Assembly (NCBI GenBank): GCA_030605615.1
Contig: JAUWHZ010000012.1
Coordinates: 1-53,305 of the forward strand
From: Atribacterota bacterium
GTDB lineage: Bacteria > Atribacterota > Phoenicimicrobiia > Phoenicimicrobiales > Phoenicimicrobiaceae
Length of the DNA: 53,305 nucleotides
Reading direction: 5' to 3'
The position numbers and the translations under genes were made by a program. Below the pieces are notes generated by a model, which saw nothing but the letters and a program-made list of their open reading frames with translations, was not told the DNA's origin and did no database searches. Each line of letters opens with the position of its first letter. The first letter of the stretch is position 1. Of this stretch, positions 2,031 through 10,728 are shown piece after piece.

Positions 2031-3326
2031 TTATGGATAAATTTTACTTAACATTCTTGGGAAAGGTATGGTTTCCCGGACATGGTTTAAACCACATATC
2101 CAGGCGACTGTCCTTTCAATCCCCAGACCAAAACCTGAATGAGGAACTGATCCATATCTCCTTAAATCTAAATACCATTCATAATTTTTTCTGGGTAATT
2201 TATGTTCTTTAATCTTTTCAGCTAATAAGTTATAATCATCGATCCTTTGCCCGCCTCCAATAATTTCTCCATATCCTTCAGGAGCTAAAAGATCTGCACA
2301 CAAAGCAACCTCTGGCCTTTGGGGGTCAGGTTTCATATAAAAGGCTTTACATTTTAAGGGATAATGATGAATAAATATTGGACTTTCATATTTTTGAGAT
2401 AAAATAGTTTCATCTTCTCCTCCAAAATCCTCTCCCCATTCAATTTTAGAACCGCTCTTTTTTAAAATTTCTACTGCTTCATCATAAGATATTTTGGGGA
2501 AAGGAACTTTAATAACTTCTAATTTTGATGTATCTCTTTCTATTAAATCCAACTCTCTTTTTTTATTTTCTAAAACCTGTTTTACAATATAAGTTACCAT
2601 TTTTTCCTGGATTTTATTATTTTCTTCCAAGTCAATAAAAGCTGCTTCCGGTTCTACCATCCAAAATTCCATTAAATGCCTTCTTGTTTTAGATTTCTCT
2701 GCTCGAAAAGTAGGTCCAAAGCAATATACCTTTCCAAATGCCATAGCTGCTGCTTCATTATATAGTTGTCCGCTTTGAGTTAGATAGGCTTTATCTCCAA
2801 AATAATCGGTTTCAAATAAAGTAGTAGTTCCTTCACAGGCTGCTGGTGTAAGTATGGGAGAATCTATAAGAATAAAGCCATCTTGATCTAAAAAATTTCT
2901 AATAGATTTAATTATCTCAGCTCTTATCCTTAAAATAGCATTCTGTCGAGGTGACCTTAACCATAGATGACGATAATCCATTAAAAATCCTACTCCGTGC
3001 TCTTTTAAAGAAATAGGATAATTATCTTCTGCCTTATTAACTACTTCGATATTATTTACTAATACTTCATACCCCAGTGGAGCCCTCTTTTCTTTTTTCA
3101 CCAATCCAATTATTCTCATTGAGGATTCATATTCAATATCATCTATTTGTTCGAATATTTCTGTATCAACTTCACTCTTAATAAGGGTTGCCTGGAGAAA
3201 TCCTGTCCCGTCTCTTATTATTAAAAATTTTACACTTCCACTTGAACGCCTATTGTAAAGCCATCCCTTAATATCTACTACTTTGCCATCATAATTTTTA
3301 ATATCGCTTATTCTTATAATTTCCAC
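2031..3326 (-). CDS. asnS: asparaginyl-tRNA synthetase
   Basis: Class II aa[49 protein letters not shown] and [15 protein letters not shown]. Confidence 0.95.
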
Positions 3327-3357: not shown

Positions 3358-4653
3358 TTAGCCTAATGACCCCTTTTCTAATTCATTAATTAGATTATCT
3401 ACCTCAACTTCCTTTTGCTCTTTAGTTTTCATATTGCGAAGGGTAACCATATTTTTTGATATTTCTTCTTCGCCAATAATCATAGTATACTTTGCCCCAA
3501 TTTTATGGGCTATTCTCATTTGAGATTTTAAACTTTTTGCAGAATAATCCATATCTGCTGAAAGGCCAGCATTTCTAATTTTTTGTAATAATTTAAAAGC
3601 TATATTTTTGTTTCTTTCGCTAACTTTGGCTACAAATATGTCTAATCCTTTATTTTTGGGCCACCCTATCTTCTGCTGATTCATAACAATAATCATTCTT
3701 TCTATTCCTGCAGCAAATCCTACAGCAGGAGTAGGCTTTCCTCCTAATTCTTCTACCAGATCATCATATCTACCTCCACCACCTATAGCATTTTGGGCGC
3801 CTAATTCCCCTGACACTATTTCAAAAGAAGTTTTAGTATAATAATCTAATCCTCTTACTAATCGAGGTTCTACATAATACTTAATCTTAAGATCATTTAG
3901 ATATGATTTAACTTCTTTAAAATGTTGTTTACATTCCTGGCAAAGATAGTCGGTGATAATAGGAGCTGTTTTAATAATTTTTTGACAATTATCTTTTTTA
4001 CAATCTAAAATTCTCAAAGGATTTTTTTCATATCTATTTACACATTCTGAACATAGAAAATCTTTTTTATCTTTTATAAATTCTTTTAGTTTCTGAACAT
4101 AAATAGCTCGGCACCTTTTACAACCTACACTATTTATCAAAATTTCAAGATTTTTTAAACCTAATTTTTTATATATTTCTAAAGCAGCAATAATAACTTC
4201 AACATCTACTACTGGAGATTTAGTTCCGATAACCTCAATTCCAAATTGATTAAATTGACGAAATCTACCTGCCTGTGGTTTTTCGCATCTGAACATTGGG
4301 CCGATATAAAATAATTTCACCACCTGAGAAGATCTATCCATTTTATTTTCTAAATAAGCCCTAACTACCGGAGCTGTCCCTTCAGGTCGTAAGGTAAGAC
4401 TTCGTCCTTTTCTATCAGGAAAAGTAAACATCTCTTTAGTAACTATATCAGTCGATTCGCCTATTCCTCGAACAAAAAGTTCAGTGTATTCAAAGGAAGG
4501 AGTTCTTATTTCTTGATATCCATATTTAGTCAATATTTCCCTTATTATATTTTTAATATAATACCATTTTGGAGTATCCTCAGGTAATATATCTTGTGTT
4601 CCTTTGGGAACCTTAATAAACAATTTTTTACTCTCCTTTTCTTTTTTTAACAT
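3358..4653 (-). CDS. hisS: histidyl-tRNA synthetase
   Basis: PKGTQDILPED N-terminus, LRPEGTAPVVRAY, GLDYYTKTSFEI; Cys-rich insertion. Confidence 0.96.
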   Translation of the reverse strand: MLKKEKESKKLFIKVPKGTQDILPEDTPKWYYIKNIIREILTKYGYQEIRTPSFEYTELFVRGIGESTDIVTKEMFTFPDRKGRSLTLRPEGTAPVVRAYLENKMDRSSQVVKLFYIGPMFRCEKPQAGRFRQFNQFGIEVIGTKSPVVDVEVIIAALEIYKKLGLKNLEILINSVGCKRCRAIYVQKLKEFIKDKKDFLCSECVNRYEKNPLRILDCKKDNCQKIIKTAPIITDYLCQECKQHFKEVKSYLNDLKIKYYVEPRLVRGLDYYTKTSFEIVSGELGAQNAIGGGGRYDDLVEELGGKPTPAVGFAAGIERMIIVMNQQKIGWPKNKGLDIFVAKVSERNKNIAFKLLQKIRNAGLSADMDYSAKSLKSQMRIAHKIGAKYTMIIGEEEISKNMVTLRNMKTKEQKEVEVDNLINELEKGSLG

Positions 4654-4655
4654 TT

Positions 4656-5714
4656 CTAATAACTATAGCGATGTTCCATAAATGCTTTTTTATCAATGGC
4701 TTTTTTTATAGCATCTTCTCGACTAATTTTGCCTTCCATAACCAAATCTTTCAATGACTGATCTAAACTTTGCATGCCATCTTTTTTACTAATCTGTATA
4801 GTAGATGGAATTTGGTGAACTTTTCCCTCTCTTATTAGATTTCTAATTGCCGGATTGGCAATCAATACTTCTAAAGCAGGCACTCTTCCTGTGCCATCCA
4901 AAGTAGGCATAAGAGTTTGAGCTACAATTCCTTGTAAAGAACCAGCAAGTTGCATTCTAACTTGATTTTGCTGATGAGGAGGAAATACATCTATTATTCT
5001 TTCTACTGTTTCCCCTGCACTAATAGTATGAAGAGTTGAAAATACTAAGTGCCCTGTCTCAGCTGCAGTCAAAGCCATAGAAATAGTCTCGAGGTCTCTC
5101 ATTTCACCTACTAAGATCACATCAGGGTCTTCCCTTAAAGCATTACGTAAAGCAGATGCAAAAGATTTAGTATGCGAACTTATTTCTCTTTGAGAAACTA
5201 AACAATTTTTATGATGATGAATAAATTCAATGGGATCTTCTATAGTAATTATATTATCGTATCTGTTTTTATTTATAATATCGATTAAAGCAGCTAAAGT
5301 AGTTGATTTTCCGCTCCCTGTAGGCCCAGTAATTAATACGAATCCCTTATCTTTCTCAGTAAATTTTGAGAGAATTGATGGTAAATTTAATTCAGAAAGG
5401 GTTTTAATCTTTTCAGGAATTAACCGGAAAGCAGCCGCTTCACCCAGACGATGTTTAAATACATTTACTCTAAATCGGGCTACATTAGCTAATTCATAAG
5501 ATAGATCTAATTCACCATATTTTTCAAAATCCCTCTTTTGCCTTTCGTTTAATATACTATATATCATTTCATGTGTATTTTTCGGATTTAATTCTGGTAA
5601 ACTTAATTTTTCTAATTTTCCATTTATACGGAGAACGGGAGGTGCTTCCACGTTAATGTGCAAATCAGAAGCATCTTTTTCTTTAGTTATAATTAATAAT
5701 TCTTTTATTTCCAT
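4656..5714 (-). CDS. pilT: type IV pilus retraction ATPase PilT
   Basis: GPTGSGKSTTLAALID Walker A, EDPIEFIHHHKNCLVSQRE, GEMRDLETISMALTAAETGHLVFSTLHT. Confidence 0.94.
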   Translation of the reverse strand: MEIKELLIITKEKDASDLHINVEAPPVLRINGKLEKLSLPELNPKNTHEMIYSILNERQKRDFEKYGELDLSYELANVARFRVNVFKHRLGEAAAFRLIPEKIKTLSELNLPSILSKFTEKDKGFVLITGPTGSGKSTTLAALIDIINKNRYDNIITIEDPIEFIHHHKNCLVSQREISSHTKSFASALRNALREDPDVILVGEMRDLETISMALTAAETGHLVFSTLHTISAGETVERIIDVFPPHQQNQVRMQLAGSLQGIVAQTLMPTLDGTGRVPALEVLIANPAIRNLIREGKVHQIPSTIQISKKDGMQSLDQSLKDLVMEGKISREDAIKKAIDKKAFMEHRYSY

Positions 5715-5858: not shown

Positions 5859-5900
5859 AAAAAATCCCTGACAATACTTTTTATATAGTATTGCCAGGGA
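5859..5900 (-). terminator. T-box intrinsic terminator
   Basis: GC hairpin TCCCTGGCAATACT...AGTATTGTCAGGGA followed by TTTTTT on the minus strand. Confidence 0.9.
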
Positions 5901-6071
5901 CGAGAATCTCTCGCGGTGCCACCCTGTTTGAATGGGGATATCCATTCCGCTTATTAGCAAATTAACGTCTGCTACCCGATTAAGTTTACTATTTTTTCAA
6001 CTTAATTTATTTTAGGGGTCTTTCGATTATCTTCTATTTTATTTTCCAAAAAAAGATAACCTACTCTCCTA
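5859..6071 (-). ncRNA. T-box leader (transcriptional attenuator)
   Basis: Minus strand has AGGGTGGCACCGCG (T-box consensus) at 5912-5925, antiterminator CAGGG..CGAGA/TCTCG.CCCTG, terminator GTCCCTGGCAATACT/AGTATTGTCAGGGA then T-run (5859-5900), stem III TTAAGTT/AACTTAA (5980-6005), and stem I with AGAGTA/GAAA-GAC specifier-type internal loop (6013-6071). Confidence 0.93.
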
Positions 6072-6113
6072 TTTTGTATTTTTTAACATTCTTTAATTGT
6101 TTAAGCTTAAACA

Positions 6114-6142
6114 AGTTTATACAATTATAATTAAAAAGTCAA
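6114..6142 (-). promoter_or_regulatory. possible sigma70-type promoter for the T-box/pilT operon
   Basis: Minus strand TTGACT (6137-6142), 17 nt, TAAACT (6114-6119); upstream of T-box stem I. Confidence 0.4.
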
Positions 6143-9836: not shown

Positions 9837-10367
9837 TCATTTACTAATTATCAAAGGATATAGCCTTTTATATAAGATAAAAGTTAAGAAACCACTAATA
9901 ATTCCCTTTAAAAGATTAAAAGGAATAATAGCCGGGATCAACATTTTAACTACAATTTCTCTGCTGACACCTAAATAAATTGGGGTTACTATCAAGTTAG
10001 CTGGAATCATTACCAAGGTCATTGCCAGGGTTCCCAGGATTATTCCTAAAATAGCCCCTTTCTTAGTGTGGTGTAAGAGATAAATTTGAGAGGATACAAA
10101 TACTAAAGTTCCAGTAGCCAAAAAATTCATCAAAGCGCCATATGGACCTCCCTGCCCGGTAATTAGAGCAAAGAGTATTGCGGTTATAAAGCACATTAAT
10201 ATGCCAGTTTTGGGCCCTAACTTAAAAGATCCAATTAGAAGAAATACACTTCCTGGGTCATATAACAAAAAGGGGGCTTGTGGTAAAATGGGAAAATGAA
10301 TAAAATATCCTGCTATTACAGATAACGCAACTAATATAGAAATGCTGGTGATTTTTACACTTTTCAT
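9837..10367 (-). CDS. ribU: ECF transporter S component, riboflavin type (RibU-like)
   Basis: Hydrophobic multi-TM protein, FPILPQAPFLLYDPGSVFLLIGSFKLGPKTG; preceded by FMN riboswitch. Confidence 0.88.
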   Translation of the reverse strand: MKSVKITSISILVALSVIAGYFIHFPILPQAPFLLYDPGSVFLLIGSFKLGPKTGILMCFITAILFALITGQGGPYGALMNFLATGTLVFVSSQIYLLHHTKKGAILGIILGTLAMTLVMIPANLIVTPIYLGVSREIVVKMLIPAIIPFNLLKGIISGFLTFILYKRLYPLIISK

Positions 10368-10445: not shown

Positions 10446-10467
10446 AATCTTTATTTAAAATAAATTA

Positions 10468-10728
10468 CTTCTCCTCCCTTCCAGACTTTACTGTCGGCTC
10501 TGGCTTTTCACCAGATCTGTCCGGCACTCAATGAAATCAATAATATTTTAAAAATATAATTTATACTTTTTTAGAAAGATTATAATTTTAAAACTAAATT
10601 ATTGATTGAGTGCCAGACTCGTGGGCTTATTCTCTCTTTGTTAAAAACAATAGAAAGAATTTACCACCGGTCGGGAATTGGTTAATTTTTAATTCAACCT
10701 CACCCTGCCCCGAAAAAGTTTTTTCTTC
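10468..10728 (-). ncRNA. FMN riboswitch (RFN element)
   Basis: Minus strand TCGGGGCAGGGTGAGG...AATTCCCGACCGGTGGT...AAGCCCACGAGTCTGG...CAGATCTGGTGAAAAGCCAGAGCCGACAGT...AGTCTGGAAGGGAGGAGAAG. Confidence 0.96.

Follow-up and report, generated by a model that had tools for sequence, protein, structure and literature searches.

The leader that precedes the pilT-hisS-asnS-aspS operon is a genuine T-box riboswitch. It lies on the minus strand of the window (the whole 53,305 nt stretch analyzed here, from an uncultured Atribacterota bacterium) and spans 6073–5859, from the proximal end of Stem I through the terminator and its U-run. Recognition of tRNA-Asp with control by termination is very likely, and we put the probability that the element acts as a transcription-attenuating T-box riboswitch sensing tRNA-Asp at roughly 0.9. 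Such a switch would let the enzymes that charge the His, Asn, and Asp tRNAs be made when uncharged tRNA-Asp builds up. The T-box as a kind of RNA is known; the novelty of this variant is the combination of a class IV anatomy with a class I expression platform.

The Rfam T-box covariance model RF00230 matches positions 6084–5893 with 90.3 bits (E = 1.8e-20, 501 bases searched), and the alignment spans model positions 1–219 from end to end, with all domains aligned. The score falls 2.7 bits below the gathering cut-off of 93 bits, a point that we count against the assignment, and for this reason a scan of the window at gathering threshold missed the T-box and returned an FMN riboswitch and a tRNA only. 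The leaders of relatives score 66.8–85.6 bits with the same model. The leader strand folds far better than shuffled sequences (z-score −6.15). These data uphold the call of a transcriptional T-box made in a first-pass annotation, which also placed Stem I at 6013–6071 and the end of the terminator at 5859; both sets of coordinates hold, and the strand is minus. Weak Rfam matches to mir-23 and MIR2630 reflect the hairpin form of the terminator. A promoter match upstream of the leader is no better than chance, which we likewise count against the assignment. The FMN riboswitch (10465–10721, minus strand, 78 bits) is a separate element that precedes a gene for an ECF-type riboflavin transporter (9837–10367).

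The first gene of the operon encodes a PilT/PilU-family type IV pilus ATPase (4656–5714, minus strand; TIGR01420, 485 bits against a cut-off of 319). It is followed on the same strand by hisS, encoding histidine–tRNA ligase (3358–4653; TIGR00442, 521 bits), asnS, encoding asparagine–tRNA ligase (2031–3326; PRK03932, 572 bits), and aspS, encoding aspartate–tRNA ligase (200–2011; PRK00476, 893 bits). The nearest named relatives are Atribacterota metagenome-assembled genomes (MAGs), and HisS is 83% identical to that of UBA9904. Other members of the window's family have orthologous leaders before this operon; in a second, sister family the leader immediately precedes hisS, and the one pilT gene is located upstream of the leader. 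All 12 hisS-operon leaders surveyed in these two Atribacterota families combine a short Stem I with a terminator, which in every case ends in a run of 5–7 U and overlaps the antiterminator; a thirteenth such leader (G016) lies beyond the 12 surveyed. Relatives carry two pilT paralogs, one on either side of the leader (window 4656–5714; L080, L082, L083, L085, and L148), and in an unrooted pilT tree the “up” and “down” copies separate, with the sister-family genes between them. Some relatives (L148 and L151) have, between the T-box and pilT, a gene for a small MshEN-domain protein, of a domain type that usually binds c-di-GMP; the window's genome has no such gene.

Stem I (6013–6071, minus strand) is defined by the RF00230 alignment and by pairing in seven leaders. 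Its proximal helix (UAGG, 6071–6068, with CCUA, 6016–6013) leads into an S-turn loop formed by AGAGUA (6067–6062) and GAAA (6024–6021), beyond which a distal helix of 9 bp (6061–6053/6033–6025) is capped by a 19-nt AU-rich loop. The distal helix is 96.8% paired across the seven leaders, and four of its nine pairs have changed on both sides. The specifier, GAC for Asp (6018–6020, minus strand), occupies a side bulge within the internal S-turn loop beneath this covarying helix, rather than an apical loop. The same codon is found in 11 of the 12 hisS-operon leaders, with AAC (Asn) in the other, and agrees with the presence of aspS in the operon, so the Asp specifier proposed in the first-pass annotation stands, as do its internal-loop pattern and its description of the distal part. 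The base 3′ of the specifier is C in the window's family, where a purine is usual, and this too counts against the assignment.

Inspection of Stem I also bears out the reported absence of the elbow platform: the canonical AG bulge and distal T-loop platform (IDTM) are missing from this leader, and no longer Stem I lies upstream, the covariance-model alignment already reaching model position 1. The earlier description of Stem I as “ultrashort” is right as to shortness and wrong as to the term, which strictly denotes a specifier in an apical loop; with its side bulge, this Stem I is of “intermediate” length. By eye, the base of Stem I has no GA/GA motif indicative of a K-turn, and we count this against our reading, a K-turn having been reported as essential for binding by short Stem I–Stem II T-boxes. 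A GA/GA K-turn motif is visible by eye in the valS leader of this genome.

Stem II and a pseudoknot, which the first-pass annotation had considered not apparent, are both present and conserved, each with covariation in the seven leaders. The correction matters because known T-boxes without an IDTM use their Stem II domain as a substitute for the elbow contact. Stem II (5979–6006, minus strand), identified by alignment and pairing, is formed by AUUAAGUU and AACUUAAU (6006–5999/5986–5979) and encloses an S-turn of GAA (5998–5996) and AGUA (5990–5987); 98.2% of its alignment cells are paired, and one pair has changed on both sides. The Stem IIA/B pseudoknot (5955–5978, minus strand) comprises CG/CG together with UAGCA (5974–5970) paired to UGCUA (5959–5955), with the F-box CGUUA at 5967–5963; all of its cells are paired, and again one pair has changed on both sides. 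Stem III (GAAUGG/CCAUUC; 5928–5952, minus strand) is flanked by the AAGCG ... AA purine motif described for T-boxes (PMC7778990; PMC7583486).

The expression platform consists of two alternative structures. The antiterminator (5896–5925, minus strand) contains helix A1 (AGGG/CCCU), the bulge UGGC-ACC (5921–5915), and helix A2 (GCGAG/CUCGU). The intrinsic terminator (5859–5900, minus strand), identified by fold energy and by a terminator scan in which 0.1 sites were expected in the shuffled region, pairs UCCCUGGCAAUACU with AGUAUUGUCAGGGA in a hairpin (5900–5865) with a 14-bp stem of about −21.6 kcal/mol, followed by UUUUUU. This is the clear terminator noted in the first reading of the sequence, and it is 99% paired in relatives. 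The segment UCCCU (5900–5896) is common to both structures, so that their pairing is mutually exclusive. Two features led us to reject control of translation: the strength and conservation of the terminator, and the position of the pilT ribosome-binding site, well over 100 nt further downstream.

Covariation was assessed in an alignment of seven leaders, all from the window's family. The full structure, including the pseudoknot, has 43 pairs, for which 98.7% of cells are paired, a percentage favored by the structure having been drawn from the window's own sequence; both-side changes gain nothing from that choice. Nine pairs have changed on both sides, as against 2.2 in shuffled alignments, and none of 500 shuffles reaches nine. 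When partners are slid out of register, at most three pairs show such changes. Changes of this kind occur in all three stems and in the pseudoknot; in Stem II, the pseudoknot, and Stem III, 98%–100% of cells are paired. Since four of the nine fall in the distal Stem I helix, this helix is genuine structure rather than a remnant.

The UGGC bulge is complementary to the 3′ GCCA of tRNA-Asp, with G73 as discriminator, the tRNA sequence being taken from relatives. A pattern search found tRNA-Asp(GUC) in 26 of 31 genomes, and the relatives' copies end in GCCA. The gene was not found in the window's own MAG, which is 65.7% complete; this is a further point that we count against the assignment. The same MAG encodes a tRNA-Asn with G73 and a tRNA-His with C73, so the bulge disfavors tRNA-His, as was first suggested from the sequence, and Asp and Asn would be separated by the specifier. 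A ligand other than tRNA-Asp, either tRNA-Asn or a tRNA read in another frame (AGA or ACC), we consider very unlikely. The shared G73 of tRNA-Asn and the presence of asnS in the operon are compatible with such a specificity, and one hisS-asnS leader (G023; L145/L061) has AAC in place of GAC; yet GAC is constant in 11 of the 12 leaders while its neighbors vary (GAAU-GAC-G, CAAU-GAC-C, and GAAG-GAC-A), the ACC frame is confined to the window's family, and aspS belongs to the operon. The AAC leader is a possible natural switch of specificity, which the UGGC bulge would tolerate because tRNA-Asp and tRNA-Asn both have G73.

With tRNA-Asp as the ligand, GAC in the Stem I side bulge would pair with the GUC anticodon while the leader is being transcribed. 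With no elbow platform to rely on, the leader may instead clamp the codon-anticodon duplex with its Stem II S-turn, which the IIA/B pseudoknot would hold in place. The 3′ GCCA of an uncharged tRNA would then pair with the UGGC bulge and stabilize the antiterminator, allowing RNA polymerase to continue into pilT-hisS-asnS-aspS. With charged tRNA, or with none bound, the UCCCU strand would instead enter the terminator hairpin and transcription would stop. That the tRNA could be bound by leaning on Stem II, free of any elbow contact, is suggested by analogy with published class III structures.

Known T-boxes fall into class I, with a long Stem I bearing the platform, a Stem II, and transcriptional control; class II, the glycine T-boxes; class III, with a short Stem I and an apical specifier; and class IV, with an intermediate Stem I, no platform, and a side-bulge specifier. 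Classes III and IV “mostly regulate translation initiation” (PMC10482949). According to a leading review, transcriptional T-boxes generally need a long Stem I with an elbow platform, since tRNA binding has to precede the arrival of RNA polymerase at the terminator; the platform is described there as expendable in translational T-boxes and essential in transcriptional ones (PMC7583486, section 6.2). The TBDB database likewise reports a longer Stem I in transcriptional T-boxes and mentions some class I sequences predicted to have a truncated Stem I (PMC7778990), so the database may already contain other transcriptional leaders of truncated form.

The window's leader has the class IV architecture joined to a transcription terminator. 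It shares with the Actinomyces odontolyticus ileS type (class IV; PMC10482949) the intermediate Stem I, the missing platform, the side-bulge specifier between two helices, and Stem II, but it has an intrinsic terminator, whereas class IV is mostly translational; it also specifies Asp rather than Ile, comes from Atribacterota rather than Actinobacteria, and has no recognizable K-turn. Like the “ultrashort” class III ileS leaders of Nocardia farcinica, M. tuberculosis, and M. smegmatis, it lacks the elbow platform and has a Stem II S-turn and IIA/B pseudoknot, but the class III specifier is apical, in a penta- or hexanucleotide loop, and control is translational, in contrast to the internal S-turn loop and transcriptional platform seen here. 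The contrast that the first-pass annotation drew with translational short-Stem-I leaders of actinobacteria is therefore a fair one (PMC7583486, section 6.2; PMC10482949, introduction). With class I leaders of the B. subtilis tyrS type, it has in common the S-turn specifier loop, Stem II, the IIA/B pseudoknot, Stem III, the antiterminator/terminator switch, and an aminoacyl-tRNA synthetase operon, and it differs from them in lacking the double T-loop of a long distal Stem I (AG bulge and GGUG-type loop).

Stem I was read by script and by eye in 76 T-boxes, 75 from Atribacterota and 1 from an outside genome. The distance between its S-turn strands is bimodally distributed. In 26 of the 76, about a third, Stem I is short (about 13–45 nt) and bears no elbow platform; the remainder are mostly 52–68 nt, nearly all with an AGAGA-type bulge and a GGUG-type loop. 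The short leaders specify Asp (12, one of them AAC), Phe (4), Val (3), Thr (3), Ile (2), Ser (1), and Trp (1), and all belong to the window's family, the sister family, or one further family. Specifier and downstream gene agree for Val (valS), Ile (ileS), Phe (pheS), Thr (hom), and Trp (trpE), and the Ser leader precedes a class V aminotransferase gene. A terminator-like hairpin and U-run follow in 25 of the 26, the trpE leader being an unclear exception. The window's genome itself has short Asp and Val leaders alongside a long Ile leader, before ileS, that bears the platform.

These lengths bear on whether the first reading simply misfolded a canonical long Stem I, with an elbow platform concealed in the 19-nt AU-rich loop. 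The corresponding stretch in UBA9904 is longer, at 44 nt, and contains AAAGAGUA. However, the hisS-operon leaders measure 19–44 nt between the S-turn strands, against 52–68 nt for leaders with the AG bulge and GGUG loop, a group to which the ileS leader of the window's own genome belongs, and the distal hairpin of the sister family is only about 4–7 bp with a small loop. A concealed platform is on these grounds scarcely credible.

Sequence patterns for the short and long forms were also applied to 349 genomes of one Bacillota phylum, where they matched 95 and 232 genomes, respectively; the patterns require AGUA, GAA, a C-ending codon, and an exact T-box sequence, and this strictness undercounts both forms. 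Most of the Bacillota short-pattern matches show an AG-bulge/GGUG platform in the printed stretch and were rejected as short T-boxes. Full reading covered part of this set: none of 15 ambiguous loci examined in this sample has a genuine short Stem I, all 15 having a long Stem I with the platform and the pattern's AGUA inside the distal stem. The same short pattern in Atribacterota finds genuine short leaders in about 19 of 23 cases by eye.

In three relatives the T-box before this operon is degraded or gone, which we also count against our reading. One (G001, L148) retains remnants of Stem I and the terminator and has no T-box sequence, a second (G007, L151) keeps just the 3′ end with the terminator, and in a third (G005, L150) the element is completely absent, with only 16 nt separating the two pilT genes. 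Together with the lack of a recognizable K-turn, these stages of loss could indicate that the window's leader is itself a decayed T-box, its Stem I shortened by degeneration, that now serves mainly as a weak constitutive attenuator. We regard this as distinctly unlikely: the distal helix covaries, and a decaying element would not retain compensatory changes; at least 11 of 12 leaders, from two families, still have GAC, UGGC, and the terminator; and short leaders for other amino acids carry specifiers matched to their genes.

Considered together, the survey and the leader's structure incline us, by a small degree, toward a clade-wide Atribacterota class of terminating T-boxes, for at least seven amino acids, that would catch their tRNA fast enough to beat the terminator with no elbow platform (and, in the hisS leader, no recognizable K-turn), presumably by means of Stem II. 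If true, this class would run counter to the general rule that transcriptional T-boxes cannot do without the platform. Natural platform-less leaders that have terminators and share genomes with long ones make that claim directly testable, the short and long leaders of one genome forming matched natural pairs. The limited collection of literature searched contains no report of T-boxes in Atribacteria or Atribacterota, and the present leaders extend T-box biology to this phylum.

Near-perfect long inverted repeats (GGGGUCAGGUCUCAACAUUUGACAUAACUU...) lie beside hisS in several relatives (L052, 2769–2850; L053, 1422–1513; L082, 6263–6354). They match miRNA models by chance and are probably a mobile or repeat element.
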